A DNA stretch of 30,047 nt, from positions 1 to 30,047 of the IMG/VR virus record IMGVR_UViG_3300028553_000120. One strand, 5' to 3'. Every line of letters begins with the position of its first letter. The stretch's first letter is position 1. Under the pieces are notes generated by a model that worked only from the letters and a program-made list of their open reading frames with translations, did not search any database and was not told the DNA's origin. This stretch comes from a virus. A program made the position numbers and the translations under genes. Below, one piece after another: positions 1 to 27,635 of this stretch.

Positions 1-548
1 TCGAAATCGGCATAGGCCCATTGGATTTCCTCTTCCTGGCTGTTGGCGTTGCTGTTACCGGTGGCAATCCCGCTGCTGGCGGTGCGCCCGCGCACCACCG
101 CCCGATTGGTCGCGGTGCCGGCGATGATCCAACTGACCTCGCTGAGCACGGCGCCGCCGCTGGCCACCCCGCCGACGCGGTAGCTGTTGGCGCTCACGAT
201 CCCGCCCGGCCCTTGGTTCAGCCGGGCGAAGTTGTAGAGATACAGATCGTCGGTGACGGTGAGGGTCTGATCGGTCACGCTGAGCGTCTGCCAGCCGCCG
301 ATGGTCGCGCCGCGCAGCTCCAGGCGCTGCACCGTCACCGGCACATCGACAATCACCGTCGCACCCCCGGTCGAGGCCAGGATCACCTCGTCACCCGCCG
401 TCGGCACCGTACCGGTATCCCACAGCGTGGGATCGGACCAATTGCCGCCGCCGTTCTTGGTCATCGTGACCGTGGCCGCCGCCGCCGGGTTGAGCCACAG
501 CACCAGGGCGACCAGGCCGATCAGGACGAACAACAGGCGGCTCTTCAT
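1..548 (-). CDS. Secreted G8-like beta-rich protein, C-terminus cut by window edge
   Basis: This reading frame starts at ATG 548 and is open to the window edge, giving about 182 visible residues. It begins with a clear signal peptide: MKSR, a hydrophobic stretch LLFVLIGLVALVLWL, then an AAAA-type cleavage site near residue 25. Just after comes NWSDPTLWDTGTVPTAGDEV, a pattern typical of G8-like and other secreted beta-helix proteins (W..P..W..G.VPT.GD.V). The remainder is rich in Thr, Val, Gly and Ser, as in beta-solenoids. The ATG overlaps the upstream stop by ATGA, so it belongs to the late operon. A Sec signal is unusual for a virion protein; it could be a lysogenic-conversion cargo or a surface adhesin. 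The function is not known, and the C-terminus is outside the window. Confidence 0.75.
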   Translation of the reverse strand, partial: MKSRLLFVLIGLVALVLWLNPAAAATVTMTKNGGGNWSDPTLWDTGTVPTAGDEVILASTGGATVIVDVPVTVQRLELRGATIGGWQTLSVTDQTLTVTDDLYLYNFARLNQGPGGIVSANSYRVGGVASGGAVLSEVSWIIAGTATNRAVVRGRTASSGIATGNSNANSQEEEIQWAYADF

Positions 549-898
549 ACAAAACTCCAACGATTGTTGAGCACAAGTGGCATAGCCCCATCGGCGCTGG
601 ACGCCGCATCAGGGGCGGCGACAGCGGGCGGCTGCGTGGTCGTCGGCCGCCAGCCGGCGGCGGTCTCGACGTGCCACAGGGCGGTGATGACTTGCAGCAT
701 GGCGCCATCCGGCAACCCCTCCGGACTGGGCCAGAGCGGCCCGGGCGGCAGGTCGGCAATGGGTCGCCATCCGGCCGCCCCGGCATCCACCCACAGCCGG
801 GCGCCGATCACTTGCAGCATGGCGCCGCTCGGCAGGTCCGCCGCTGCCGGCAGGCGCGCAACAGCACGCGTCGGCCGCGGATGCCGGCGCAACCCCAT
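545..898 (-). CDS. Small protein with internal duplication, unknown function
   Basis: This 117-residue protein has no family that I recognise. It contains two copies of a motif of about 25 residues, of the form LP.GAMLQVI.A.LW.V..AAGWRP, at roughly residues 22-48 and 62-86. The copies are joined by a Pro/Gly-rich linker, and a third partial copy (DGAMPLVLNNRW) stands at the C-terminus. Such short W-containing beta repeats are common in fibre-tip or carbohydrate-binding accessory proteins, but that is inference. Both ends are joined to neighbours by ATGA overlaps (starts at 898 and 548), so it is co-translated with the fibre-like gene upstream and the secreted gene downstream. Confidence 0.7.
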   Translation of the reverse strand: MGLRRHPRPTRAVARLPAAADLPSGAMLQVIGARLWVDAGAAGWRPIADLPPGPLWPSPEGLPDGAMLQVITALWHVETAAGWRPTTTQPPAVAAPDAASSADGAMPLVLNNRWSFV

Positions 899-1938
899 CA
901 CGACGGCACGCCAAAGAACTGCGCCGACGCTGCGAGCACGCGCGCGCCGTCGAGCGCCGGCACGACACTGAGCTGCAGCCACCAATAGCCCGCCGCGGAG
1001 GTCTCGACCGCGTAGGCGATCTGATCCGGCGTCGCCCAGCCATCCAGATCCAGCGTATGTGGCGCCACGCCGTCATAGTACAGAAAGAGATCGGTGGTAC
1101 TGCACCCGGCCGCGGGCATTAAGGCGACCAAGTACGCATCCGCGTCCAGCACGCACACCGTGGGACGGCCATCGAGCGGTAGCACGACGCTGCCATGCGC
1201 CGCCACACTGACCGCGCGCTCCCGCATGGTGTAGCCATCGAGCGTCGGGGTGTGGCGATCAGCCGCGGTCGCCGCCGCATCCAGCCCGGTCTGCTCGCGA
1301 TCGGCGGCGGTCGCCGCCGCATCCAGCTCGGTCTGCTCGCGATCGGCGGCAGTCGCCGCCGCATCCAGCCCGGTCTGCTCGCGATCAGCGGCAGTCGCCG
1401 CCGCATCCAGCCCGGTCTGCTCGCGATCAGCGGCAGTCGCCGCCGCATCCAGCCCGGTCTGCTCGCGATCGGCTGTCGTCTCCGCCCGGTCCGCGGCAGC
1501 CTGCTGCGCACTCCCCGCGGCAGCCGCTTGCGCCGCGCGCAACTCCACCATCAGCGTCCCCGCCAGCGCCCCGCCCTCGATCTCTTCAGCGGCCAGCAGG
1601 TTCACCAACTCCTCAGGCCCGTCCGACACCGGCACTTGGAACAACGGCCACACCTGCACCCGTTCCGTGCCCCGAAAATACGTCACCCGATAATGCGTTG
1701 GCGCCCCCGCCGGCAGCGCCAGATCGCGCGTGGCCGGCAGCTCGATCAGCGTGCCGGCGGCATCCACCACCGGCACCCGCCGCGACTCGCTTGCCAGGTC
1801 CAGCCCCCACACTGCCAGCGTTGCCGCCGGGGCGCGCGCCCCGGCCGCGGTCACCAGTTCCACCAGCGCCTCGGCGCGCACCACATGGCCGCCGGCCAGC
1901 AGCGGCGGCAGACGCACCGATGTCAGGGCAAGTGCCAT
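898..1938 (-). CDS. Tail-fibre-like protein with coiled-coil repeats
   Basis: This 346-residue protein has three parts. The first (about 1-150) is a beta-rich N-terminal region containing PVVDAAGTLIELPATRD and HYRVTYFRGTERV. The second (about 150-235) is an Ala-rich helix with five copies of a 14-residue unit, ADREQTGLDAAATA. The third (about 236-346) is a compact C-terminal domain rich in Trp and Tyr. Fourteen residues are two heptads, so the repeat should form a trimeric coiled-coil shaft, as in many phage fibres. The layout suggests base, shaft and tip, with the tip as a likely receptor-binding part. ATG 1938 overlaps the stop of the preceding 1094-residue gene by ATGA. The function is inferred from architecture, not from a named family. 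Confidence 0.8.
   Translation of the reverse strand: MALALTSVRLPPLLAGGHVVRAEALVELVTAAGARAPAATLAVWGLDLASESRRVPVVDAAGTLIELPATRDLALPAGAPTHYRVTYFRGTERVQVWPLFQVPVSDGPEELVNLLAAEEIEGGALAGTLMVELRAAQAAAAGSAQQAAADRAETTADREQTGLDAAATAADREQTGLDAAATAADREQTGLDAAATAADREQTELDAAATAADREQTGLDAAATAADRHTPTLDGYTMRERAVSVAAHGSVVLPLDGRPTVCVLDADAYLVALMPAAGCSTTDLFLYYDGVAPHTLDLDGWATPDQIAYAVETSAAGYWWLQLSVVPALDGARVLAASAQFFGVPS
1260..1470 (-). repeat. Five tandem 42-bp repeats inside the fibre gene
   Basis: The marker GCCGCCGCAT recurs at 1271, 1313, 1355, 1397 and 1439, an exact 42-bp period. The copies differ only at a few positions, such as GGCGGCGG versus CAGCGGCA, and one Gly-to-Glu change. Each copy encodes one 14-residue coiled-coil unit. 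Because 42 is a multiple of three, gain or loss of units keeps the reading frame and would change only shaft length. Confidence 0.95.
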
Positions 1939-4900
1939 CAGGCGGCCGGGGTCACGCCGATATAGGCGCCATAGGGCGCAATGGTCACGCTGGTCGCGGA
2001 CGATCCATCATTCGCCGGATCCTGGCCCCAGCCGCGCACGCGCTGGTAGGTCCCGCCCAGCGCCACTGTCTTGGCGGTCGGAGTCGCGTTGACCACCACA
2101 ATGCCGTGCTCGAAGGTCCGCAAAAACACGTCGACATTGCCCGCGAACAGATAGATGGCGTCGACAAACAGGTCGCCCACGCCGAAACTGCCCACGTCGA
2201 GCAGCAGCGGCGTCGTGATCGCCGAGGTCGTGCGGAACGTCCAGATGCGGCGCGCCCACTGATCCAGCGTCGGATACAGCCCGGCGCATTGCAGCGCGCC
2301 GAACATCGGCCGGATGCGGCCGTGCCGATTGCATTTCAGCGATAGCGCCAGGCTGTACTCGGTGTTGGCCGCCAGCGTCACGCTGGGGCCGGTCACCCGG
2401 CACGCCGAGTCGGACGGCCAAGCCGGCAGCGCGGCATTGATGACAATCTTGAGCGATCCCGTGCCTTCAATCGCTTCGGTCGTCGATCTAGTGAGCACCC
2501 CATTGGCCGCCGACCAGCCCGTGATGCCGGTCTCGAAGCCGGCATGAAAAATGGCGTTTTCCGGCGCCATCGCCGCGTATGAATAGATGCGCCGATAGTC
2601 CGCGGTCGGCGCCCCCAGCCAGTTCTTCCACGTCCGGCGGCCGACCGCGTTCGTTTTAATGATCGCCTTCCCGTAGTCCGCGCCGGCGGTCAGGTCGACA
2701 CACTCGAACTCGTAATACCGGTCGGCGTCCGCGCCGCTCCAGTTGTGCCACGAGTACATCTCGCTGAACACGCACGCGACCGCGAACGTCAGCCGCGCCC
2801 AATTATCATCTTTCGCCCCGCCGCCCGGCGGCGGATAGGACCGTGTGCCGATCTTCTCCATCCACTCGCCGAGCGACGGGGTTGCGGTTTGCGAGCCTTG
2901 ATCCGACAGCACTGCCGACACATACCGGTCAAGCTCGGTGGGTTTCGCCACCGCGCTGCCGGTCTCACTCATCTGCCCGCTGGCCGCCGCTTCTTTCTGG
3001 CGGTCGTTCGCGATGCCCTGGCCGGCCGCGCTCGACTCGCCAGGCTGGAGCATCACATGCACCCGGCCGCGGGCGTCCAACGCATCGCGGCACTGCTGAT
3101 ACAGCTGGTTCCAGCCAATGCGCCAGCGGTTTTCGCCGGTCGTCCTGTTCAGTCCCCAGTCGGCGACCCCATTGTTATCCTGGTCGATCGCCCGATCCGC
3201 CCATGGCGAGCCGGTGGCCGACCCCCAGGCGTCGCAGGGGAAATCCGAGTCGAAACAAACGGCGTGCACCGTGCACGCCAGCAGCGTGGTGTAGGACGCG
3301 GCGTCGTAGTAAGCCGCGATCCACTCCGCGAAATACTGATTCCAGCGCTTTGCCGCGCCATCCAGCGGACAGTCGGGGCCCAGGTGGTAGCGCCACAGCT
3401 CCGCGCGCGTCCCGTTGCCCTGCGCGTGCTGTGACACGCACGAGTTGGCCGGATGCGCCCGCGCCGTGCTCTTATATCCGCGCACGATGCGCAGATCGTA
3501 TTTGCCGGTCCCGGTGTTGAGCGTCACCGACTCCACCAGCACATGCTCTGCGTCGGTAAACGTGCCCCAGCCCGGCCCGTAAATGACGCAGTATTTCCCC
3601 GCCGTGATGTACTGCGTGGGGTTCACACTGATCGTCGTCGCCGTCGCCGTGATGGCTGTCACCGAGGTCGTGCCCCCGAGATACAACCAGTGGCCCGCAT
3701 ACACCACGCCCGGCCCACTGGTCGGCCCGGTGCCGTCGAAATTATGCCCGCTCAGAATCGCGCCGGCGGCCTCGTCGAACCCCTGATACGCCGGTCCCGC
3801 AATGATGCGGGCATACGTGATCGGGCGAATCGCCTGCGCCGCGGCCACCGCCGCGATATTGGGAGCGAACGGCTTCCAGGCGATGTAATCCATCTGCCCC
3901 AAGCCCGCCGCGCCTGGATTTTGCAGCAGCGTCGACGAGGCTTTGATCGGATAGTCCGAGATATCGGCCAGCGGAACAGCGTAGGCCCGCGTCGTCGTCG
4001 GCTTGGTCGGCCGGTCCTCCAGGTACGCCCTGGTGTCCTCCGGCACGACCGGCGGCGGCACCGCCGCCCCGATATCGTAGCGGTCCGAATACCCGCGCAT
4101 CGCCGTCCTGGTAAACGTGTGCGTCGCAGCCGCTGAGCTGAGCGCGATGCTCACCGTGATTGCTGCCGGGGCCGCCCAGTCATAGGTAAAGCCGGCGCCG
4201 CCGCCGGGGCCGGAGGCGACGATGTTCGCCCGAATCCCGTTAAAGCCGCCGTCGCCGGTACCGACCGTCGCCGCGCCCGCGTTCCCCACCAGGATCGAGC
4301 CTTCCAGCCGCGCCAGCAGATCCCCGGCGCGGATCAGCTCGACCTCGATCAGCACCGGGCGACCGCCCGCGGCCGTGGGCATCGCGTCGAACAGGTCCTC
4401 ATACAGCGTCGCCGCACCGGCCTGGATTTTCAACGTGAAACCGGCGCTGGAACCGGAGTTGTTGAGATACGTGCCAGAGAGCACGATCCGCACCGCGGAC
4501 CCGAGCTGATTGGCCACGCCACCCGGCACGGTCACCTCCGCCATGGCCGTCGATGTCGTGCTACTACTGACCGCCAGCGCCGCATCTGCATAGACCGCAT
4601 AAGCGTTTGGCAGCCCGGTCAGCAGCGCCCCACTCACCGGCGGCAGCCGCCCTTGTTCGTCGATCACCGCATAGCCGATGCTGCGGTGATCCCCCCACGC
4701 GGCGACGGTCTCGGCGAGATCGCCCTGCTCGGCCGTGGCAAAGTGCTCGGACGGCAAAAACGCAGCGGACCCCAAGCCAAGCTGAGCGACCAGATCCCAG
4801 ATCACTCCGCCGCTCAGCAGCGCCTGGCGCAGATAGAGCGGCGACGCTTCAAACTCCACGATCGCGCTGTCGGCACCGGCCACGCGCGCCACAAACCCGA

Positions 4901-5222
4901 TCAGCGATGCGTTGGTTTCCGCCAACGCAAAGGCATCCGGGCCGGTGGCATACACCGGCGCCAGCAGATCACTCGCGGACACCCCAGGCAGGGTCACCCG
5001 CGCCTGGCCGCGCGTGCGCACCCGCACCACCTGGGCGCCGGCAGCGCCCCACTGATTATCCGCGCGGGTCAGCGCGAACCCCAGAAACAGGGCGCCGCCG
5101 CTCAGTACCGTCGCGTAGCCGTCCGCCAACCCGACCGCGACACCGGCCGGGATGATGCTTGCGGCAGCCACCTGCACATCGTTGATGTCGCCAAGCTCAT
5201 ATCCGCGCTGGATGTCTTTCAT
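1938..5222 (-). CDS. Decoration-domain protein fused to glycosidase-like and carbohydrate-binding regions
   Basis: This 1094-residue late protein appears to be a fusion. Residues about 1-130 resemble the N-terminal half of the head decoration protein at 8368-9120: both have GYA..L..G..F.GF, VRV..RG, DL..PVYA...DAF.L and IGFV.R. Residues about 140-190 contain a fibre-type segment (LGSAAFLPSEHFATAEQGDL). A beta-rich stretch follows. Residues about 410-880 look like a putative TIM-barrel glycosidase, with ITYARIIAGPAYQGFDE and AVCFDSDFPCDAWG. Residues about 890-1030 look like a CBM4/9-type jelly roll (FETGITGW, GTGSLKI). The end (HGIVVVNATPTAKTVALGG, then ANDG) matches the beta domain that closes several hypothetical glycoside hydrolases. 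The start lies 3 bases after the tail-tube stop. Catalytic residues cannot be assigned with confidence. A fibre or adhesin without enzyme activity is the alternative. Confidence 0.75.
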   Translation of the reverse strand: MKDIQRGYELGDINDVQVAAASIIPAGVAVGLADGYATVLSGGALFLGFALTRADNQWGAAGAQVVRVRTRGQARVTLPGVSASDLLAPVYATGPDAFALAETNASLIGFVARVAGADSAIVEFEASPLYLRQALLSGGVIWDLVAQLGLGSAAFLPSEHFATAEQGDLAETVAAWGDHRSIGYAVIDEQGRLPPVSGALLTGLPNAYAVYADAALAVSSSTTSTAMAEVTVPGGVANQLGSAVRIVLSGTYLNNSGSSAGFTLKIQAGAATLYEDLFDAMPTAAGGRPVLIEVELIRAGDLLARLEGSILVGNAGAATVGTGDGGFNGIRANIVASGPGGGAGFTYDWAAPAAITVSIALSSAAATHTFTRTAMRGYSDRYDIGAAVPPPVVPEDTRAYLEDRPTKPTTTRAYAVPLADISDYPIKASSTLLQNPGAAGLGQMDYIAWKPFAPNIAAVAAAQAIRPITYARIIAGPAYQGFDEAAGAILSGHNFDGTGPTSGPGVVYAGHWLYLGGTTSVTAITATATTISVNPTQYITAGKYCVIYGPGWGTFTDAEHVLVESVTLNTGTGKYDLRIVRGYKSTARAHPANSCVSQHAQGNGTRAELWRYHLGPDCPLDGAAKRWNQYFAEWIAAYYDAASYTTLLACTVHAVCFDSDFPCDAWGSATGSPWADRAIDQDNNGVADWGLNRTTGENRWRIGWNQLYQQCRDALDARGRVHVMLQPGESSAAGQGIANDRQKEAAASGQMSETGSAVAKPTELDRYVSAVLSDQGSQTATPSLGEWMEKIGTRSYPPPGGGAKDDNWARLTFAVACVFSEMYSWHNWSGADADRYYEFECVDLTAGADYGKAIIKTNAVGRRTWKNWLGAPTADYRRIYSYAAMAPENAIFHAGFETGITGWSAANGVLTRSTTEAIEGTGSLKIVINAALPAWPSDSACRVTGPSVTLAANTEYSLALSLKCNRHGRIRPMFGALQCAGLYPTLDQWARRIWTFRTTSAITTPLLLDVGSFGVGDLFVDAIYLFAGNVDVFLRTFEHGIVVVNATPTAKTVALGGTYQRVRGWGQDPANDGSSATSVTIAPYGAYIGVTPAA

Positions 5223-5225
5223 GGC

Positions 5226-6125
5226 TTAGACCAGCGTCGCCTTGCAATACTGGGATTTTCCTGCGCCGGTGATGTCCGTGTCTTTCAAGACCTGGCCCTC
5301 GATCTCCACCTCGGCCGGGTCCTCGCCCAGCCAGGCGATCACTTTCGCCGCGGTCAACCGGACCTTGTAATAGCTCAGGGTCACCGCCTCGTCGGTGTCG
5401 AACTCGTTCAGGCCGCCGAACACCAGCTCGTAGTTCTGGCCGGCGCCGGTCAGCAGCTCCACCACGCTATAGGCGCCGTAGCTGTAGGCCAGGGAGATCG
5501 ACTGCCCGTCGACGATGCCGCCCTCCAGGATCATGAGCCCCTCGGCGCGGACCTCATAATCCACGTCAGCGGTCGGGGTCCAGGCGGCCTGGTAGGTCCA
5601 TACCACCGTGCCATCGGTCACCGTCCCGCTGGCCGGCCACGTCGGCGCCGACGACCCGGATGTGCCGGCCGTGGTGGCCTTGTAGAGCTTGCCGCTCGCG
5701 ACCACCACGGCGTTGAGCGCATACGCGGTCGTCGCCGCCCAGGTATTGCCCGCCGCGGCAGTCACCACGACACTGGTTGCGCGCGGGTGATCGAAGGGGA
5801 TCAGTCCGCCCTGGTACGCCGTGGCGACCTGCGCCGCCACCGTGCCGGCGACAACCTCGGTGGCCGTGCCGTAGCGGGCCATCGCGAGATTCTTCGCGTC
5901 GAGGTCGTGCATGATGAACTTGAGCCCCATCGACGTGATGCGCGTAAAGCTCGCGTACTCACCGCCGCCGGGCTGCGTGTAATCGGGGATCGACTTCTTG
6001 TCCTCTTCCACGCTCTCGTCGAGCGCCGAGACATTGCCGACATGGCGCAGCGGCGCAGCGTCGCCGCGCTTGCGCAAATACAACTTGCCCCCGAGGGCGG
6101 TCGGCCGATAACTGGTAACGGGCAT
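5226..6125 (-). CDS. Phage tail tube protein with inserted beta module
   Basis: The 299 residues fit a siphovirus-type major tail (tube) protein. The N-terminus (LYLRKRGDAAPLRHVGNVSALD) and C-terminus (VEIEGQVLKDTDITGAGKSQ, then YCKATLV) are typical of tube proteins that end in E.EG..LKD..G.GKS.Y. Between them, about residues 120-175, lies a short module, WAATTAYALNAVVVASGKLY, continuing to TVVWTYQ. It resembles the small carbohydrate-binding-like inserts common on phage tail proteins and would decorate the tube surface. The gene starts 12 bases after the K-like gene. Presence of this type instead of Mu sheath and tube genes suggests a non-contractile tail. Tape measure and chaperone genes, which normally follow, are not in the window. 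Confidence 0.8.
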   Translation of the reverse strand: MPVTSYRPTALGGKLYLRKRGDAAPLRHVGNVSALDESVEEDKKSIPDYTQPGGGEYASFTRITSMGLKFIMHDLDAKNLAMARYGTATEVVAGTVAAQVATAYQGGLIPFDHPRATSVVVTAAAGNTWAATTAYALNAVVVASGKLYKATTAGTSGSSAPTWPASGTVTDGTVVWTYQAAWTPTADVDYEVRAEGLMILEGGIVDGQSISLAYSYGAYSVVELLTGAGQNYELVFGGLNEFDTDEAVTLSYYKVRLTAAKVIAWLGEDPAEVEIEGQVLKDTDITGAGKSQYCKATLV

Positions 6126-6137
6126 GGGGGCGACTCC

Positions 6138-6614
6138 TTATATGTAGGGGGTCGCGGTCGGCGACACCCGATGCGTGAGCGTGTGGGAGAAGACGATGGG
6201 CACCCATTGGTACCCTTTGATATAACCGGGGTTCGGCAGGTCCGTCAGCACCAGCGGCGCGCTGCCGGGTCCGTCCGGGCGAAAGCCCATCAAGGCATCG
6301 AGCACCGCATCCACCAAGGCACCGGCCGCGGCGCGCGCCGGGGCGCCGGTGTCGGACTGCGCCGCGTTGCCGACCGTGATCAACACCATCCACCGGGCCG
6401 TGATCCGCGTCGCGCGGCCATCGGTGCGCTCGGGCGTCTGCACCGCCGCGCCGCGCCACATCACATAGACCGCCCGCGGCGGCTGCGTCCCGGCCAGCAC
6501 CGCATCGAGCGACGGGGCGGCCAGCACCTGCACACTGCGATCGAGCACCGCGCGCAGGCGCTCCAGAATGATTGGCTCAGCGCCGAACAGCCCGGCCGGC
6601 ACCGGCTCAGCCAC
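6138..6614 (-). CDS. Mu gp37/K-like protein (DUF1834 family)
   Basis: The 158-residue product begins VAEPVPAGLFGAEPIILERL and contains RAVYVMWRGAAV, RITARWMVLITVGNA and PGYIKGYQWVPIVFSHTLTH, the layout of the Mu gp37 family that stands just after the J-like gene. Members are thought to act at the head-tail junction or in tail completion. I chose GTG 6614 because its G is shared with the TAG stop of the upstream gene (TAGTG), giving translational coupling. The frame stays open upstream to 6833, but that part lies wholly within the J-like gene and is probably not translated. Confidence 0.8.
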   Translation of the reverse strand: MAEPVPAGLFGAEPIILERLRAVLDRSVQVLAAPSLDAVLAGTQPPRAVYVMWRGAAVQTPERTDGRATRITARWMVLITVGNAAQSDTGAPARAAAGALVDAVLDALMGFRPDGPGSAPLVLTDLPNPGYIKGYQWVPIVFSHTLTHRVSPTATPYI

Positions 6615-7132
6615 TACCAGCGCCCCCCAAAATCGCTGAGCGCATCGGCATCGAACACCGATTCGCCCGCGACGAACGACGGCGCATCCGAGCCCGAACT
6701 GGGCGCCGCCGCGGCGGCCGGCGCGGCGGCCAGCACAATGCGCCCATCGGCGATGCGCGCCAGATCGGCGCGCGCCAGGTCGGCCGCTTTGGCGACCGCC
6801 TCGGGGCGCTGGTAGCGGTGCAGATACGCCCAAGCCAGATCCAGCAGCAGCCCGGTCACCAGGTCATCGACCGGCGCCAGCGGCAGCGCATAGCGCCCGC
6901 GCGCGGCGCCGTGCAGATCGGACTCGGCGCGGGCGATGGCCGTATCGATCCAGGCCAGGGCTTCAAACAGGGCGGCCTGGGTCACCGCGTCGTAGCCGCT
7001 CAAATCGGTCTGGGCTACCGCCTGGCGCAAGAGGTCCGCGGACAGCACCGGCCCCTCGGTGGGACTCGCCAACTCGGCGGCCGTGGCGGCGCCGCGGGCC
7101 AGCAGGTGCGCGGGGGTGAGATACGTGCCCAT
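6614..7132 (-). CDS. Mu gp36/J-like protein (DUF1320)
   Basis: This 172-residue protein starts MGTYLTPAHLLARGAATAAE and has the DUF1320 pattern: an all-helical domain with a conserved AIARAESDLHGAARGRYALPL segment followed by LLLDLAWAYLHRY and RPEAVAKAADLARADLARIADG. DUF1320 proteins stand between the gp35 and gp37 genes in Mu-like phages and are probably head-tail connector proteins. The Ala- and Ser-rich C-terminal tail (about 130-172) is typical. The gene is 3 bases after the gp35-like stop and overlaps the next start by one base. Confidence 0.88.
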   Translation of the reverse strand: MGTYLTPAHLLARGAATAAELASPTEGPVLSADLLRQAVAQTDLSGYDAVTQAALFEALAWIDTAIARAESDLHGAARGRYALPLAPVDDLVTGLLLDLAWAYLHRYQRPEAVAKAADLARADLARIADGRIVLAAAPAAAAAPSSGSDAPSFVAGESVFDADALSDFGGRW

Positions 7133-7135
7133 CGG

Positions 7136-7381
7136 TCAGCCCCGCGGGCGCTGCTTGGCGCGGCGCGGGGGCGGCGGCGGGGCGTCCAAAAGCACCAAGT
7201 TGGCGCTTTTGGGGGTGTCGATAGAGCCCTCCCTGGCGATGGCATACCCTGGGTCGCGCGCCACCACGGCCGCCTGCTCAGCGGTCAGTTCGGCCACACT
7301 CACCCCGATCGGCCATTGCTGGCCGGCCCGCCGCGGGGCGGCGGTCGGGGCGCGGGTGATGCGGTAGCGCGCGGAAGTCAT
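7136..7381 (-). CDS. Mu gp35-like small protein
   Basis: The 81-residue product contains IGVSVAELTAEQAAVVARDP, the short helical motif (L T..Q...V..DP...V.E) seen in Mu gp35/HI1506-type proteins, and stands in the expected position between major head protein T and the J-like gene. After this comes TPKSANLVLLDAP and a Pro/Arg-rich basic tail. The KSANL stretch reappears in two early proteins of this phage. ATG 7381 is 2 bases after the T stop. Its role in the virion is unknown. Confidence 0.7.
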   Translation of the reverse strand: MTSARYRITRAPTAAPRRAGQQWPIGVSVAELTAEQAAVVARDPGYAIAREGSIDTPKSANLVLLDAPPPPPRRAKQRPRG

Positions 7382-7383
7382 GC

Positions 7384-8355
7384 TCAGACCATCGTCGCCT
7401 TGACGGCGTGCTGCCAGTACCCATAGCCCGCGTTGTTGATCGCATCGGTCGCCACCAGGCACTCGTCGTGCACGGTCGCGTGCTCGGAGTCGGGGCCCAA
7501 AATCTTGATGTTCACCGCGGAGTCGGCCCCGTCCTCTTGGATGATGAAGGGCTTTACATCGCCGTCTGTTCTGAAAATCGCGATCTCATCGGTCCAGGAG
7601 CCATTAAGTCGGGCATTCTGCGCAACCGTCAGGTTGACCCCGTTGGTTTTGCCGATGGCGATCATGTTGTCGTCACCGCTGTCGAGCACTTTGGCGCCGA
7701 CCGCGGCGATGGCCGGCATCCACAGCGAGGTCGGGACCATGACCAGGAAGCTTGACGCGTCCTCGTTCATCGGCTCGCCCTGGTCGTCGGCGAAGCTCAG
7801 CAGCGCCTGCACTGCCAACATGATGGTGTGCGCCATCTCCGATGGGGACGGGGCGGTGACGGTGCCGTGATGGGTGCAAGCCAGCGCACTGATGTCCACC
7901 TGAATGCTGTTCGACTGCGCCCCCGACAGCCCTTCGGAATGGTCGGTGTCGAAGAAGTTCTGCCCGTCGTAACAAAGCCCGTTGCTGATGATCAGTTGCG
8001 AGATCAGCCGCGCGAAATGCACCCCATAGCGCCGCGCCAGATCCCGGAGCCGCACCTGGATTTGCCCGGTCTTGTCCTTCCTCCAGTCCAGCAGCGGCAC
8101 ATTGATGCTCGACTCCCAGCGCTTATTCCGGATTTCATAGCCCTGCGACGCAAGCTGCTTCGGTTGCCTGCCGCCGATGAACTCACGCGGGGCGGGCGCC
8201 TGGCCCAGCCACCGGTATTTCTCGGTCGCCTCCAAGCCCTGATTCGCGGCGCCGTTGCGCCAGGCGATCTGGGTCGCCCAGGGGTGCGCGCTCTGCGACA
8301 GGGCGGTGTAGAAGCTGCCGACGACCTCGCGGGTCGAAAGTGCTGCGGTAGTCAT
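7384..8355 (-). CDS. T: Mu-like major head subunit gpT
   Basis: The 323-residue protein matches the Mu gpT major capsid family in length and content. The N-terminal half includes YRWLGQAPAPREFIGGRQ and YEIRNKRWESSINVPLLDWR. The middle has LIISNGLCYDGQNFFDTDHS, and the C-terminal half has SSFLVMVPTSLWMPAIAA and FIIQEDGADSAVNIKILG. These follow the usual gpT order (R.WLG..P...E..G.R; Y....FE..I.V....; YDG..FFDTDH). It forms the icosahedral shell of the head. It lies between the decoration and gp35 genes, as expected. ATG 8355 is 12 bases after the decoration stop. Confidence 0.93.
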   Translation of the reverse strand: MTTAALSTREVVGSFYTALSQSAHPWATQIAWRNGAANQGLEATEKYRWLGQAPAPREFIGGRQPKQLASQGYEIRNKRWESSINVPLLDWRKDKTGQIQVRLRDLARRYGVHFARLISQLIISNGLCYDGQNFFDTDHSEGLSGAQSNSIQVDISALACTHHGTVTAPSPSEMAHTIMLAVQALLSFADDQGEPMNEDASSFLVMVPTSLWMPAIAAVGAKVLDSGDDNMIAIGKTNGVNLTVAQNARLNGSWTDEIAIFRTDGDVKPFIIQEDGADSAVNIKILGPDSEHATVHDECLVATDAINNAGYGYWQHAVKATMV

Positions 8356-8367
8356 AGTTCGGTTCCG

Positions 8368-9120
8368 TTATGCCTGTTTCGCCCACGTGCCGCGCTTGCG
8401 CGTCACAATCCAGCCGGTGCCGTCGCCGTAGCTCAGCAGCACATAGTCGCCGCGTTTGGCGGTCGCCTTGGTGTTAAGCAGGTCCTTGTCGTCAGCGCTC
8501 GACAGGTCCGGGCCTTTGATACCGTCATTCGCGTTCGGGCTGATGGTGATCAGCACCGTGCCGTCCGCGCCGCCGTTCACGAAAGCAAACATCATCCCCG
8601 CGACCGCCGGCAGCGTGATCACCCCGGCATCCGCCGTAATGACGAACAGCTTGGCGGTGTCCTCGGCATCTAACGTCTTGGCCGCGCTCACCGCCTCGGC
8701 GGTGAACCCCGCCCAGGGGTCCGGCCACGCCGTATCGTAGGCCACCACGCCGACCCCGCTCGACACAAAGCGCTCGACAAAGCCGATGAAGGTGCCGCCC
8801 ACCGGCGACAGCGAAAACGTTGCGTCGTCGCTGGCATAGACCGGCTGGCGCAAATCGGTCGCGACCAGGCCGGAGATTGTCAACTCGATCGCCCCGCGCA
8901 CCGTGACGCGCACCTGCTTATCGCCCGCGCTGCCGGTCGCGTTGTCGACCGTGCCTTGCGAAAAGCCGTGGAACCGGTCACCCGCGACCAGCGGGCGGGC
9001 ATAGCCGGACAGCGTGCCGACCGCGGCCCCCTGGTAGACGATATCGGTCGCCACGATGGGGAGATCGGTGTAGTCGCCGACCTTGGACTTGATTGGGCTT
9101 GCTTCTGCGAGGGTGGTCAT
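8368..9120 (-). CDS. Capsid decoration / head-fibre-like protein
   Basis: The 250-residue product has two parts. Residues about 1-125 form a small beta-barrel-like domain of the DUF2190 type: GYARPLVAGDRFHGFSQG, QVRVTVRGAIELTISGL and PVYASDDATFSLSPVG. Residues about 140-250 form a second beta domain (TLDAEDTAKLFVITADAG, then GDYVLLSYGDGTGWIV), as found in head-fibre or baseplate-like accessory proteins. It sits between the protease/scaffold and major head genes, the usual place for a decoration protein. Its N-terminal domain is clearly related to residues 1-130 of the 1094-residue protein at 1938-5222, so both may bind the capsid surface. The second domain is not recognised precisely. Confidence 0.78.
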   Translation of the reverse strand: MTTLAEASPIKSKVGDYTDLPIVATDIVYQGAAVGTLSGYARPLVAGDRFHGFSQGTVDNATGSAGDKQVRVTVRGAIELTISGLVATDLRQPVYASDDATFSLSPVGGTFIGFVERFVSSGVGVVAYDTAWPDPWAGFTAEAVSAAKTLDAEDTAKLFVITADAGVITLPAVAGMMFAFVNGGADGTVLITISPNANDGIKGPDLSSADDKDLLNTKATAKRGDYVLLSYGDGTGWIVTRKRGTWAKQA

Positions 9121-22369: not shown

Positions 22370-23199
22370 GGGGCCTCCAGTGCTTGAGCGACGCTGAGGC
22401 CCACGCGGCCGGCCAGAATCTCGATCAGCCACAGATGGTCGGCTCGCCGCGCCTCCCACTCCAGCGGCGATTCAATGAGAAAAGTGCGCAGATCGGTCCG
22501 CCGGATGATCCAGCGCGGCAGCGGGCCGTCGCTGCTGTCGCGCTTGGCTTTGATGTGGCCGCGCCCGATCCAGCGCTGCACCACCTTGCCCTCCACCCCC
22601 ATCAGCTGGCAGATCTGATGCACGTTGTAGATATCCGGATTGCCGCCCAGCGCGACCTCCTCGATCCGGCAGCGGCACAGGATGGCGCCCAAGCTGCGCA
22701 CGTAGCCGGCGCGCTTGAGCCGCCGCTGGATGGCCCGCGCGCCGTCTTCGGCCGCGTCGTCCAGGATCGCCAACTCCGCCGCCGACCAGTTGGCCGGCTT
22801 CAGGCTGCCGTTGACGATGCCCAACTCCCGCGCCCGTGCCAGCACCCAATGGCGCGGCCGGTCGACCTTGGCCGCCAGCTTGGCCTGGGCGCCGCGCGGG
22901 CGTTTGCCGCCCGCCTGGTAGTAGGCCCGGATCTGGGCGTCGATCTCGGGGGTCGACGGGTCATTGAAAATGTGCCGGCGCTGCCGCCGCAGATCCATGC
23001 CCCGCGCGGCGTTGAGGATGGCGCCGCAACTGCGCGCCGGCAGCAGCCGCTGGCAGGCGCGCAGGCCCGCGGGCAGGTACTGCTCGCGCAGCACCTGTTT
23101 CTCTACCGGGCTCCAGTCGAAACGGTGGTTGGTGCCGCGCTCGGGGGTCCACCCGTGCGGAGTCACCGGGGCCGTGATGGTGGGGACGATGCGGATCAT
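22366..23199 (-). CDS. Multi-helix DNA-binding-like protein
   Basis: The 277-residue protein appears to carry several DNA-binding units. Residues about 27-70 (DWSPVEKQVLREQYLPAGLR) and 135-165 (NWSAAELAILDDAAEDGARA) resemble Myb/SANT-like helices with conserved W. Residues about 190-245 (VHQICQLMGVEGKVVQRWIG, then RGHIKAKRDSSDG) resemble a MerR/excisionase-type helix-turn-helix with wing. It follows the B-like ATPase by an ATGA overlap. A role in replication or target choice is possible; no family is named with confidence. Confidence 0.72.
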   Translation of the reverse strand: MIRIVPTITAPVTPHGWTPERGTNHRFDWSPVEKQVLREQYLPAGLRACQRLLPARSCGAILNAARGMDLRRQRRHIFNDPSTPEIDAQIRAYYQAGGKRPRGAQAKLAAKVDRPRHWVLARARELGIVNGSLKPANWSAAELAILDDAAEDGARAIQRRLKRAGYVRSLGAILCRCRIEEVALGGNPDIYNVHQICQLMGVEGKVVQRWIGRGHIKAKRDSSDGPLPRWIIRRTDLRTFLIESPLEWEARRADHLWLIEILAGRVGLSVAQALEAP

Positions 23200-24416
23200 C
23201 AAAGCTTCTCCACGACAGGGCCGGTCAGCGGGGCGGGCGCGCCCGCTGCCGCGGCGAGGTTGAGGGCGGCGGCCACCAGGTTGCCCACCAGCAACGGATA
23301 GGCGCGCGAGGGCTCACGGGCGGCCGTGCGGGCGGTCGCGTCGGCGATCTTCAACTTCTTGCGCAGGGCATCGAGCCCGCTCGGCGCGATCACCTCGGCC
23401 AGCTCCCGCCCGGCCAGGCGCAGCCGGTGCGCCAGGTAGCGGTCGAGTTGGTCATCGAGCGGATCGAGGCGGACCACTTCGGTCCGCGCCACCACCTCCC
23501 GGTAGGCGGGATTGCGCTCGCTCAGGCGATTGGCCAGCTCCGGCTGGCCCAGGATGATGATCGCCAGCAGGCGGGTCAGGCCGTACTTGACCTCCAGGAG
23601 GCGCTTCAGATGGCGGAGGCTCGGCTCCGGCATCGCGTGGGCTTCGTCGATCGCGATCGTCACCCGCTGGCCGGCCTCGCGGGCGGCGATGAGTGCATCG
23701 CGCATCTGCCGGGCGCGCGCTTCCGGGCTTTGGCGCAGCGACGCCTCCGGGTTCAGCCCATGGATGACCGCCTCCTGGATGTGCCCCACGCGCAGCAGCC
23801 GGCCGCGGGTGTCGCTGGCTTCCATGCCGGTGACATCGGGGCGGATCAGGATGTAGGGCGCGGCCTCGTCGTGGATGCGCTGCTCGATGTCGTCGAGCAA
23901 GGTGGTCTTGCCGGATCCGGACTCGCCGACCACGGCCAACAAGCCGCCGTTGCGGACCGTCGACCACATGGCTTCGCGGACATAGGCAATGTCGGGGGAC
24001 GAGAAAATGTCCGCGCGGCTTTCCGGGTCTCGCGCGAAGGGATCGCACGATAAACCGAAGTGCCGCCGGGTCGCTTGGTGAATGGGCTGTCGAAGCAGTA
24101 GCATGTCAGGGTCTTCTGTGTCGTTGGTCGGTTCAGGGGACACGTCGGCCGGGGGTGCAACCCCGGTCGACGCCTCTTTTGGCAGCGGGCGCTCCCAGCC
24201 CGCGGCCTCTTCAGTCGGCACGCCCTGTGCCTCCAACCAGTCCTGTACAGATGCCGTCGTCGCGGCGGCCGGCCGGCGTCCGTGCCGTAGCCAGTGGGTC
24301 ACCGTGCTGGGCGCCAAGTCCAGGCCGGTGGCCAGGGCACGCTGGCTCAGCCGGTGGGTGCGCAGCAGGTGGGCGAGTTGGGTCGCCATCGCGGTCTCCT
24401 CAGCATCGGCCCGCAT
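23199..24416 (-). CDS. B: MuB-like AAA ATPase of transposition (ExeA-type)
   Basis: The 405-residue protein starts with an Xre-type helix-turn-helix (residues 22-48, RLSQRALATGLDLAPSTVTH). A linker rich in Pro and acidic residues (80-105) follows, then an AAA+ domain with Walker A GESGSGKT (164-171), Walker B TIAIDEAH (253-260), a sensor-like IIILGQPEL (287-294) and a possible Arg finger region RNPAYREVVARTE (301-313). In Mu, B binds target DNA with ATP and presents it to transposase. The start at 24416 is set by an ATGA overlap with the transposase stop. Confidence 0.9.
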   Translation of the reverse strand: MRADAEETAMATQLAHLLRTHRLSQRALATGLDLAPSTVTHWLRHGRRPAAATTASVQDWLEAQGVPTEEAAGWERPLPKEASTGVAPPADVSPEPTNDTEDPDMLLLRQPIHQATRRHFGLSCDPFARDPESRADIFSSPDIAYVREAMWSTVRNGGLLAVVGESGSGKTTLLDDIEQRIHDEAAPYILIRPDVTGMEASDTRGRLLRVGHIQEAVIHGLNPEASLRQSPEARARQMRDALIAAREAGQRVTIAIDEAHAMPEPSLRHLKRLLEVKYGLTRLLAIIILGQPELANRLSERNPAYREVVARTEVVRLDPLDDQLDRYLAHRLRLAGRELAEVIAPSGLDALRKKLKIADATARTAAREPSRAYPLLVGNLVAAALNLAAAAGAPAPLTGPVVEKL

Positions 24417-26359
24417 CAGCGGACCACCGTGAGCCCAACGCGGGGTGCGTCGGGCAGAATCTCCACCGCCGGTGCGCAGTCGCGCACCAGGGCCTCCAGC
24501 GCATCCTCGGGCACGCCCGCGGGATACCGCTCGGCCAGCCATTGGTAGCGCTCCGGCCCCCACGCGCCCCCGGCGGCCCGCACCAGCGGGGCCAGGCGCA
24601 GCGCGGCGGCCACATGATCGAGCACCGGCGTCTCGACGATCGGCACGCGCACCCGGTGATCAGTGCCGCGGCGCGGCAGCCAGGCCACCGGCTCGGCGGT
24701 GTCGGCGGTGCGGTAGGGATCGATGCCGCGGCCGTCGTCCAGGCCGGCCAGCGGGCGGAAGCCCTTGCGACGGCGCGCCAGTTCGTCGTCGCGCAGCGTC
24801 GTGGTGCCGCTGGCGAGCATCGCTAAGTCCTTGCGCGCGCGGTCGGCGGCGGTGTCTTTCGGCCGGGCGTAGCGCTCGCCATCCACCGGGGCGTCGGAGC
24901 GGAATCCCCAGTCGTCGCGGGCCACCAGAGGCAGCGGGCGGTAGACCTCGCGGCCGGTCGCCGGGTCGGTGAGCACCGCCACGGCGTGGCCTTGGCCATC
25001 GGCGCCGAGCAGTGGGGACCACAGCACGGCGATCCGGTCGCCGACGTTGGCGCCGGGCACGTCGCTCACGTCCCAGTCCTGGCCGCGGTAGGCCACCGTG
25101 AGCTCGCCGTTGACTTTGGGGGTCGCTGGGTGTTCGGTGGCAAGCGTGCGCAGCACGGCCTCGCCCTCGGTAATGCGTAGTTCGTGCGGCTGTATTTTTG
25201 CCCAGGCGGCAAACCGGGTCAGGCCGTGGCGCGAGTGAATCGCGGTCGCGCCCCAATGGGCCTGGAACACGTCCGCCAGGGCGTTGAGCGAGTCAAAGTC
25301 GGTGACGCGCTGCTTCTGGAAGCGCAGGCCCGCCTCAAACGCGTGCTCGATGATGTCGTTGCCTTTCTCGACTGAGCCCTTGGCGCGCGGGTTGCGCCGC
25401 CCGGTCGGCTCCAGGTCGATGCCGGCCAGGCCGCAGAAGCGCTCGACCGTCCCGGCTGCGGTCGCACCGGGATCCACCACCAGGCGAAAGGGGGCACCGT
25501 GCACCGGGATGGCGGGATTGGCTTGGCGCGCCATGCAGCGCGCCAGGAAGGCCACGGTATGGGCGCCCGACTCGGAATGCGGGTAGTAATGCCACAGCAA
25601 GACCCCGGAACAATGGTCTGACATCACGTAGCGGATGACCCGCTGCTGGCTGATGGCCTGGATGTGCTCCGGCTTGTTCTTGTAGTGCTTGGCGGGGTCG
25701 AGCTCTTCGACCACCGCCCCGCCGCCCGGCAGGTAATAGACGACGCACACGCTGGCATCGATCTCCCAGCGGGCATTCGGATGCAGCGTGCGGATCGGCT
25801 GATGGGGCGTCGGCTGGCGCAGTTGGTCCTGATGCAGCCCGAAGCGCTTGAGCCCGCGACTGATCGCCGACAGGCTCAGCAGCTTCAGTTCGCCGGTCTC
25901 CGGGTCCACCCGCCCGGCCTGAATCAGCCCCTGCGCGCGCAGGGTGTCGACCGCATGGCCTAGCGACATGAGTTGTTTAGCGCCGCCCTTGCCGCGGGCG
26001 GATTCGGTCATCGTCGCCGCGAGCAGCCGGGCCTCGTGCTCGGGGAGGCTCGCCAGCCCCGTCAACTGCGCATCCAGCGCCAGCAGCGCATCGCGCGCCG
26101 CCGGATCGTCCCCCGCCGCCACTTGCGCGGCCAGGGCGCGCCGCTGGCTCAGCACCCGCGTTTGGCTGTCGGCCCGCACCGCGCGCGGGGTCCCGCGATG
26201 CGGGCGCATCCAGGTATAGAGCGTCTGCGCAGACACGCCCAACTCCGCGCAGGCCGCGGCGACGATGGCACGTTTTTTCCCATGGCCGGCCGTGGCCAAC
26301 GCCTCGGCAACGCGGGCGGCAGCGGCGATCTGCGGGGGTGTCGGCATGGCGATACTCAT
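24416..26359 (-). CDS. A: MuA-like DDE transposase
   Basis: The 647-residue protein is a B3/Mu-type phage transposase. The N-terminal region (8-55) is a helix-turn-helix (KRAIVAAACAELGVSAQTLY). The catalytic core has Asp201 (RWEIDASVCV), Asp296 (FRLVVDPGAT) and Glu331 (RRNPRAKGSVEKGN), a DD-34-E layout. A C-terminal beta domain (VAYRGQDWDVSDVPGANVGD, then DRIAVLWSP) resembles the Mu-type C-terminal transposase domain. It performs integration and replicative transposition with the B-like ATPase. ATG 26359 makes an ATGA overlap; ATG 26347 is possible. Confidence 0.93.
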   Translation of the reverse strand: MSIAMPTPPQIAAAARVAEALATAGHGKKRAIVAAACAELGVSAQTLYTWMRPHRGTPRAVRADSQTRVLSQRRALAAQVAAGDDPAARDALLALDAQLTGLASLPEHEARLLAATMTESARGKGGAKQLMSLGHAVDTLRAQGLIQAGRVDPETGELKLLSLSAISRGLKRFGLHQDQLRQPTPHQPIRTLHPNARWEIDASVCVVYYLPGGGAVVEELDPAKHYKNKPEHIQAISQQRVIRYVMSDHCSGVLLWHYYPHSESGAHTVAFLARCMARQANPAIPVHGAPFRLVVDPGATAAGTVERFCGLAGIDLEPTGRRNPRAKGSVEKGNDIIEHAFEAGLRFQKQRVTDFDSLNALADVFQAHWGATAIHSRHGLTRFAAWAKIQPHELRITEGEAVLRTLATEHPATPKVNGELTVAYRGQDWDVSDVPGANVGDRIAVLWSPLLGADGQGHAVAVLTDPATGREVYRPLPLVARDDWGFRSDAPVDGERYARPKDTAADRARKDLAMLASGTTTLRDDELARRRKGFRPLAGLDDGRGIDPYRTADTAEPVAWLPRRGTDHRVRVPIVETPVLDHVAAALRLAPLVRAAGGAWGPERYQWLAERYPAGVPEDALEALVRDCAPAVEILPDAPRVGLTVVR

Positions 26360-26616
26360 GCGGCGGCGAGATCGATGGGCCAGGGGCGCAGGCCATCGCT
26401 GGCGCGCAGTCCCAGCAGCGGATCGGCATCGTGCAGCAGCGCCAAAGCATCGGCGGCGGCGTCCAGCGCCAGAGGCGCGCCGCCGGCAATCTCCCAGCGA
26501 TCGGATGTCAGGCGCACGACGGATACCCCGTGCAGATGCAGCTCGACAAGCGGCAGCATCACGGGCAGGAGGGCGCGCAGGGCGTTGGCGGCGGGGGTGT
26601 GAGTCCAGGTGTACAT
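26356..26616 (-). CDS. Small unknown early protein, paralogue of late small gene
   Basis: From ATG 26616 the product is 86 residues: MYTWTHTPAANALRALLPVM, then VSVVRLTSDRWEIAGG and an Ala/Leu helix. The V.VVRL..D.W core matches the small late protein at 16392-16655. The function is unknown. TTG 26622 overlaps the upstream stop and could be an alternative start. It lies just before the transposase gene. Confidence 0.62.
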   Translation of the reverse strand: MYTWTHTPAANALRALLPVMLPLVELHLHGVSVVRLTSDRWEIAGGAPLALDAAADALALLHDADPLLGLRASDGLRPWPIDLAAA

Positions 26617-26618
26617 GA

Positions 26619-27635
26619 TCAACTGTCCAGGCGCTCGCCGGTGGTGGGGATGGCCGTGTCCGCGGGGTCGACAGCGCCGGCTTGCGCGCGGTCGAAAGAC
26701 ACCCCCACGGCATCCCAGATGCTGGCCTCGGGCAGCAGCGCGCCGTCCGGAGCGGCCTTCACGTCGAACTCGAACTCCACCTCGGCCAGGGCGCGGCGCA
26801 ACTGCCCCATGGCGCCGGCAATGGCGTCATCGGCCGGGAGCCCGGTGCTGTCGGCGTGCTCGCGCACGGCCTTGAGGATGATCCGCAGGTCGCCGACGAT
26901 GGCGATCTCGGCATGGGCGGTGCGGCGCAGCAGTTCGCCCAGGAGTTGGGCGCGCTGTTCGTCCGGATCTGCGACCGCGACTTGGATCAGCAGGGATTGC
27001 TGGTCGCGTTCGGCGCGGAGTTTCGCGACTTCGGTCGCAAGCTTGTCAATCTTGGCGGATTTTTCTGCCAGCACTGAATCCTTGGCCGCTTCGACCTGAC
27101 GGGATTCCCTCCAGTGCGCCCGCAACTGGGTCGCGGTCATCAGGTCGGCCTGGTCATACGTGATGCCGCCAACCTCGCCCCCGTTGCGCAAGGCGGCCGC
27201 CTCGTCATCATCCAGGGTCAGATACTCCAGCATCCGCGACACCGACGTGGCCGCTTTTGCCAAATGCGCCAAATTGGCGGATTTGGCGGTTTTGAGCGCG
27301 GCGCCCATAAACCGCTCCGCGGTGCGGGTGGCGATTCCAAGGACACCCAGCGCCTGGGAAAAATTGCCGTGCCCGGTCACTTGCTTGAGCAGACACAGCC
27401 GCTTGCCAAGCTCCAGACAGTCATCAACGGTGCGCCGCTGATACATCCTGATGCCGTCCATCAGCGCCGGCACTGTCAACGGGCCGTCATAACTCAGCGT
27501 CTGCGCCAGGTCTGTCGCTGCATCGTACTGGCCATCCGCCTCCGCCTGCATCGCCCGAAAGGTCGGATCGCTCGCCGCGATCTCTTCATCCGTCGCCGCC
27601 GGTACAAACGGCGTCACACTCTTCGTCCGCCCCAT
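26619..27635 (-). CDS. Coiled-coil early protein, possibly DUF3102-like
   Basis: The 338-residue protein has an N-terminal helical domain (about 50-125) with LELGKRLCLLKQVTGHGNFS and LGIATRTAERFMGAALKTAK, similar to DUF3102-type or ParB-like helix-turn-helix regions. A coiled coil follows (about 180-215, VEAAKDSVLAEKSAKIDKLA), then an acidic C-terminal domain. The peptide KSANLAHLAKA near 119 is one of the recurring KSAN motifs. ATG 27635 is preceded by AGGAG at 7 bases, one of the few good ribosome sites here. No confident function. Confidence 0.78.
   Translation of the reverse strand: MGRTKSVTPFVPAATDEEIAASDPTFRAMQAEADGQYDAATDLAQTLSYDGPLTVPALMDGIRMYQRRTVDDCLELGKRLCLLKQVTGHGNFSQALGVLGIATRTAERFMGAALKTAKSANLAHLAKAATSVSRMLEYLTLDDDEAAALRNGGEVGGITYDQADLMTATQLRAHWRESRQVEAAKDSVLAEKSAKIDKLATEVAKLRAERDQQSLLIQVAVADPDEQRAQLLGELLRRTAHAEIAIVGDLRIILKAVREHADSTGLPADDAIAGAMGQLRRALAEVEFEFDVKAAPDGALLPEASIWDAVGVSFDRAQAGAVDPADTAIPTTGERLDS

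Follow-up and report, generated by a model that had tools for sequence, protein, structure and literature searches.

A second cement-type domain on a large fibre-like protein of a Mu-like phage, possibly a capsid-borne carrier of a sugar-handling tip

Introduction

The head fibre gp8.5 of phage phi29 is described in a review as an N-terminal beta-tulip base on the capsid, followed by a C-terminal fibre (PMC7602432). The turret of HFTV1 is a capsid-borne trimer with predicted galactose-binding-like and deacetylase-like domains (PMC12494034), and gp24 of E217 is a trimer at threefold sites (PMC10329688). For the solved beta-tulip decoration proteins, the arm is reported as the main capsid-binding part (PMC7602432); in P74-26 its first seven residues join neighbouring trimers, and the rest of the arm lies along the E-loop of the capsid protein (PMC6775164). 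Here we examined IMGVR_UViG_3300028553_000120 (the complete IMG/VR record of 30,047 bases, hereafter the window), a fragment of a Mu-like transposable phage. It encodes a 250-amino-acid (aa) decoration protein and, directly after the tail-tube gene, a 1094-aa protein whose residues 1-130 (hereafter P1N) form a second, diverged domain of the same cement type. The original prediction had suggested that the phage may use this domain to display a sugar-acting enzyme on its capsid instead of its tail.

The 1094-aa protein may resemble phi29 gp8.5 in having a beta-tulip base N-terminally and then a fibre; its stalk match is weak, and its base matches gp8.5 at Z scores of 5.8-6.0, under the level that the comparison tool treats as specific. 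The gp8.5 shaft, unlike the protein studied here, is a helical supercoil without an enzyme-like part, whereas P1N has a stand-alone cement protein as its paralogue in the same phage and would carry a sugar-enzyme-like tip. As with the HFTV1 turret (gp30 base, gp31 head), a trimer with carbohydrate-binding and carbohydrate-modifying domains is proposed to be borne on the capsid. The turret, however, is anchored at the centres of hexamers by a base protein of its own, whereas in the 1094-aa protein the cement fold and the GHL15-type C-terminus are parts of one chain. P1N belongs to the family of E217 gp24 and Pam3 gp6 (PF22758) and of PHROG 1731, with PF22758 below its cut-off and fold matches at Z 8.0-9.4. 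Those two proteins stand alone, whereas P1N is part of the 1094-aa protein, is diverged, has a shorter arm and is the second copy in its phage. Precedents for a head fibre of this sort are thus gp8.5 and the HFTV1 turret; full-text searches of open-access papers listed none whose title or opening abstract lines describe a cement-glycosidase fusion.

Results and discussion

The 1094-aa protein begins with a second cement domain

The likeness of P1N to the decoration protein is real and far beyond chance. BLASTP aligned the two without gaps at 44 identical residues out of 117 (38%, E value 2e-20), and both proteins matched PHROG 1731, annotated as 'head and packaging' (E 1.3e-14 for the 1094-aa protein and 2.3e-17 for the 250-aa protein). 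A profile built from the decoration domains of 69 other phages, with neither window sequence included, recovered both window proteins, with E 1.5e-33 for the 1094-aa and E 1.6e-51 for the 250-aa one. The Pfam model PF22758 (Phage_cement) gave 20.4 bits against the 1094-aa protein, below its curated cut-off of 27; by sequence, the N-terminus matched no families other than cement ones. The pattern that the original prediction had seen in the two N-termini was thus confirmed, and both genes lie at the coordinates it had given (Table 1).

The predicted structures agree with the sequences. AlphaFold2 (AF2) modelled P1N with a predicted local distance difference test (pLDDT) score of 91-98 and the N-terminal domain of the canonical decoration protein with a mean of 92.2, and the strand order of the two models is identical, with a constant offset of +4 residues; the two domains are predicted to share one fold, as had been anticipated. 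The P1N model matched cement proteins of HFTV1 (Z 11.5), FCWL1 (10.2), T1 (10.0) and Pam3 (9.4), and further XM1 (9.1), E217 (8.0) and lambda gpD (6.5); the best-matching chain of the HFTV1 capsid entry is probably the cement protein gp18. Among predicted viral structures, the best match to P1N carries the name 'capsid fiber protein' (E 2.2e-7).

We then compared 80 loci fetched with the capsid protein, which are the best 80 of at least 591; whole-record searches covered 50 of these 80 related records. The domain is present once in 77 loci, twice in none, and absent from three in which the capsid gene sits at the very edge of the locus; for one of these three (L049), a copy is present in the whole record. 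Whole records held a single copy in 49 of 50. In 76 of the 77 domain-bearing loci, the end of the copy falls within a narrow range, from 55 nt inside the capsid open reading frame (ORF) to 137 nt ahead of it, and in the remaining one (L071) the copy lies 1,624 nt away. In phi3LM21 and ST405-OXA48phi1.1, the domain gene stands between the protease and capsid genes and is annotated as a virion structural or capsid stabilizing protein; the 250-aa decoration protein of the window is likewise stand-alone and located between the protease and major capsid genes. Of the 77 domain-bearing loci, 69 entered alignments A2 and A3. Eight were removed by hand: L033, L053, L056, L068, L073, L077 and L078, most of them close duplicates of retained rows, and L052, which diverges most.

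Measured from the domain start, the 77 homologues run to 130-148 aa in 30 cases, which are bare domains, 179-188 in nine and 198-270 in 38, so that the C-terminus of the decoration domain is commonly extended, outwards from the capsid. None of them reaches more than about a quarter of the length of the 1094-aa protein. In the window's own decoration protein, the C-terminal domain resembles CBA120 TSP4 (Z 12.5, root-mean-square deviation 2.0), the Pa223 capsid spike (Z 12.1) and T4 gp9 (Z 8.9), and through this domain the capsid may offer a platform for spike docking. The 38 related decoration proteins of 198-270 aa are long enough for an extra domain.

The remainder of the protein and the question of an enzyme

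Beyond residue 130, the original prediction had recognized fibre-type, glycosidase-like and carbohydrate-binding-like regions, and these fared unequally. Residues about 147-200 weakly resemble a fibre-type stalk, matching PHROG 22284 (tail fibre) at E 5.2e-4 with the whole protein and 8.6e-5 with the segment. Residues 201-385 gave no family match in segment scans, and within them residues 226-300 were modelled at a pLDDT of about 50-74. Residues 887-1028 are marginally carbohydrate-binding-like: the C-terminal part of NCBIfam Mep72 matched residues about 887-967 at E 0.0034, far below the cut-off.

Glycosidase likeness was confined to residues about 1032-1092. This stretch is 44% identical over 62 aa to the C-terminus of a 'putative glycoside hydrolase' on a Rhodococcus plasmid, which database tblastn had found at E 0.02; the pairwise E is 2e-9, and the score was reached by none of 200 shuffles (z 17.5). 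The Rhodococcus protein belongs to GHL15 (PF14885, E 6.4e-26, model match 42-347), a family labelled 'hypothetical' in Pfam, and the common stretch, 339-399 of that protein, lies almost wholly outside the GHL15 model. Unlike the C-terminal 60 or so residues, the barrel of the Rhodococcus protein has no detectable counterpart here, and the 1094-aa protein has a binding-like domain between presumed barrel and C-terminal domain.

Compared with the same protein, residues 386-1010 did not rise above shuffles (z 0.3-1.3 for the presumed barrel), and an HHpred-like check of residues 400-1094, approximated with a two-sequence target, gave no support for a catalytic part. Even with E values up to 10 allowed, PF14885 had no match in the window; the segment scans gave none either, and it was absent from all 50 related records searched. 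Model search, two-sequence profile comparison and shuffles thus all spoke against placing the barrel in GHL15. The look of residues 655-730 had suggested that family; the alignment across this stretch is not significant, with equally good scores from 25 of 200 shuffles under BLOSUM45 and 69 of 200 under BLOSUM62, and the motif likeness serves as a lead only. Two other candidates were set aside as weak, FKBP8 and Malt_amylase_C, the latter below its cut-off though fitting the C-terminal beta domain of a glycoside hydrolase. Since the C-terminal 60 or so residues match while the presumed barrel stays at shuffle level, the enzyme is only a guess, reasonable from the domain order and not a result. 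Of the capsid-displayed sugar enzyme originally proposed, the capsid half is thus backed by cement fold and family, and the enzyme half by the last 60 or so residues.

Pattern scans of viral contigs and genome contigs confirmed no relatives of the whole 1094-aa protein or of its parts; these scans are insensitive, because the Rhodococcus protein used as a genome-contig query also found nothing. In phages, tblastn of the 1094-aa protein found the N-terminal domain alone.

Head or tail

Capsid display is the leading reading, because P1N has the same cement fold and the family otherwise occurs as a single copy beside the capsid gene; judged from sequence and models, we give it an even chance. The fuller proposal, that the 1094-aa protein is a trimeric fibre which docks on the capsid through a paralogue of the cement domain and ends in a tip that binds or cleaves sugars, seems to us just as evenly balanced between right and wrong. 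We infer its trimer formation, capsid location, low copy number, catalysis and role in adsorption. P1N, which repeats the trimeric cement domain of this phage in diverged form, would itself trimerise, and on the mature capsid a small fraction of threefold or quasi-threefold sites would be occupied by fibre trimers instead of the ordinary decoration protein. The fibre-type stalk would carry outwards a tip composed of the region of about 500 residues (presumably a glycosidase barrel), the carbohydrate-binding-like domain and the GHL15-type C-terminal beta domain. At first contact, the tip would attach to polysaccharide of the host or matrix and might also trim it. By analogy with the arm layout of P74-26, and if the family is alike, the loss of four arm residues would affect the link between trimers more than docking on the capsid. 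It is a doubtful further step that a second cement gene, duplicated or acquired, was turned into an enzyme-bearing head fibre, with the lattice site common to plain cement and a few glycosidase-tipped trimers and the head processing polysaccharide before tail contact; in that case the four lost arm residues, which in P74-26 fall in the trimer-linking stretch, would let the fibres dock without joining the cement network.

Several observations weigh against capsid display of an enzyme. The 1094-aa gene follows the tail-tube gene rather than the capsid gene, begins about 2.2 kb past the latter, and lies neither in the protease-capsid slot nor in the form of a stand-alone product; its stalk repeat is of the tail-fibre type (PHROG 22284). 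P1N also matches the C-terminal fragment of the phi29 tail spike gp12 (Z 8.3-8.7), and among predicted viral structures the same fold occurs in long proteins of unnamed role. The domain itself is diverged: it keeps 21 of the 28 columns that are conserved at 90% or more in 70 canonical rows (the canonical rows keep a median of 96% of near-invariant columns, and five of the 70 are at 75% or less), and it stands on a long branch of the tree. It begins at residue 5 of the others (MKDIQRGYELG versus MTTLAxDxxRxYELG), so that the first four arm residues, including the conserved Leu4, are lost, and the conserved Arg and Gly are retained. For the tip, the presumed catalytic part of about 500 residues has no match at a usable E in Pfam, PHROGs, PDB, phages or plasmids. 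The pLDDT is mostly below 50 over residues 131-1094, the presumed catalytic region included, and for this reason no fold was assigned to them; fold matches there, such as 7zvo at Z 3.4, were ignored as coming from a low-confidence model.

Two other accounts were rejected. The tree does not agree with a tandem duplication that recently copied the decoration gene of the window: in it, the 250-aa protein pairs with L005 (98/93) and P1N stands elsewhere on its long branch; the joining of P1N with L044 was flagged by the tool as possibly false. A missed upstream start of the 1094-aa gene was dismissed because an in-frame tube stop sits 3 nt upstream.

Gene position and stalk type are what a tail-side fibre or spike would show, one that has borrowed a cement domain as its trimerising or docking base on the tail tube or neck. 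Its gene would directly follow the tail-tube gene, as here with a 3-nt gap and in the same frame, its stalk would be of the tail-fibre type, and the next gene (346 aa) is also fibre-like. The beta-tulip fold does occur in the phi29 gp12 tail spike (Z 8.7), a review remarks on the similarity of cement proteins and tailspikes (PMC7602432), and in a group of Pseudomonas aeruginosa Mu-like phages a newly identified virion protein was modelled on a bacterial glycoside hydrolase and discussed alongside phage tails bearing such domains (PMC4378225). In the phi29 spike, however, the domain is C-terminal (18% sequence identity), whereas here it is N-terminal, as in cement proteins and gp8.5, and in none of the 77 domain-bearing loci does the family lie outside the capsid position (one copy is 1.6 kb away). 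Nor does the slot decide for the tail, because two relatives have the neighbouring fibre gene immediately behind a gene for head completion, and no tail gene lies ahead of it. On balance a tail location appears rather unlikely.

On head or tail alike, the displayed fibre might bind sugars only, with the GHL15-type part acting as a catalytically dead adhesin. The recognizable glycoside hydrolase piece is indeed the accessory C-terminal domain and not the barrel, the GHL15 model is silent in the window, and the capsid appendages T4 Hoc, T5 pb10 and phi29 gp8.5 are described as working by binding (PMC7602432); yet the length and order of the parts (about 500 aa, a binding-like domain, a C-terminal beta domain) fit a whole enzyme and would be superfluous for a binding-only tip, and we hold this reading as possible without favouring it. 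Very improbable, in our estimate, is that P1N is a relic on an inserted accessory gene whose product is missing from virions or present only in traces. The absence of an obvious ribosome-binding site, the divergence of the cement domain, and the failure to find the same arrangement in any of the 80 loci or in scans for the protein's other parts would suit such a relic; against it stand a long intact frame with codon-position GC like its neighbours, the retention of fold-defining positions, and a start placed against the tube stop as suits translational coupling.

If capsid display is true, the protein would be a natural precedent for using the cement domain itself to display a large sugar-acting protein of several domains on the capsid of a phage, and would extend capsid-borne carbohydrate-active appendages, a short list that includes the HFTV1 turret, to a Mu-like bacteriophage. 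It would also make head-first polysaccharide contact a testable claim and indicate a simple route to such fibres, in which an additional cement gene is released from its structural role.

Gene order and neighbouring fibre genes

The features of the window are collected in Table 1. Terminase, portal, gpF-like, gpG-like, protease and gp36-like genes are also present, all on the minus strand.

Table 1. Coordinates of the features discussed, in the numbering of the window
Feature	Position	Strand	Basis or remark
Transposase	24416-26713	minus	PHROG 310, 1.2e-65
Transposition protein	23199-24563	minus	
Canonical decoration protein, 250-aa ORF	8368-9120	minus	
Its N-terminal cement domain, residues 1-130	8731-9120	minus	PHROG 1731, 2.3e-17; AF2 mean pLDDT 92.2
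Its C-terminal domain, residues 138-250	8371-8709	minus	Fold of the tailspike, T4 gp9-gp10 and capsid-spike type
Major capsid protein, Mu gpT-like	7384-8355	minus	PF10124, 3e-32
Major tail (tube) protein with immunoglobulin-like domain	5226-6125	minus	PHROG 807, 2.1e-57
Intact 1094-aa ORF	1938-5222	minus	Directly after tail-tube gene
Cement/decoration-type beta-tulip domain (P1N), residues 1-130	4833-5222	minus	BLASTP, PHROG 1731, own profile, AF2, fold matches
Linker and tail-fibre-type stalk repeat, residues 131-200	4623-4832	minus	PHROG 22284, tail fibre
Strand-rich region, residues 201-385	4068-4622	minus	Strands modelled with low to medium confidence
Presumed catalytic (glycosidase-like) region, residues 386-886	2565-4067	minus	Inferred assignment
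Carbohydrate-binding-like region, residues 887-1028	2139-2564	minus	Weak NCBIfam Mep72 match
C-terminal beta domain common with GHL15-family putative glycoside hydrolase, residues 1029-1094	1941-2138	minus	
Fibre-like 346-aa neighbour with N- and C-terminal domains on either side of an Ala-rich repeat shaft	901-1938	minus	PHROG 1718 tail protein, 5e-5
117-aa ORF	545-898		After 346-aa gene
ORF running off contig end	3-548	minus	

No tape measure gene is present in the 30,047-base fragment, whose contig stops 1.9 kb past the 1094-aa gene. In four more distant relatives checked (L007, L015, L024 and L057), a tape measure gene lies only a few small ORFs beyond the tail protein gene, so the slot after the tube gene in the window holds extra genes. 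The stop codon TAA of the tube gene, then GCC and the ATG of the 1094-aa gene lie in succession and in the same frame (5220-5228, minus strand), and by eye no ribosome-binding site is evident before this ATG. Coupling, or rare readthrough, at this junction could yield tube-fibre fusions. The 1094-aa protein lacks a signal peptide, and its codon-position GC is the same as in phage genes.

Homologues of the 346-aa neighbour follow the tube gene in L005 and the gp36-like gene in L006. A Thiodictyon plasmid prophage encodes, after a DUF1320 gene, a collagen-repeat fibre that is related to the L006 protein (E 4e-12); compared directly with the 346-aa protein of the window, this fibre gave no significant match. 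Signal-like starts are seen in relatives of the 346-aa protein and in the Thiodictyon prophage collagen fibre (L005:6964-8022, L006:3948-4703, L090:12052-13716), and the window's own gene at 901-1938 is without one. The ORF that is open at the contig end (3-548) has a start that looks like a Sec signal peptide. Finding signal peptides among head and tail genes is unusual.

Between connector and tail genes, another relative (L012:6190-7764) encodes a 525-aa protein with about ten 'ETLALTDAA'-type repeats and no PHROG or Pfam match. Shaft types differ among the relatives, with TGYGITDA-type repeats in L005 and collagen in the prophage protein. In the window, the Ala-rich shaft of the 346-aa protein is encoded by a 42-bp tandem repeat at 1255-1470 (5.1 copies, 96% matches), which is likely a site of shaft-length variation.

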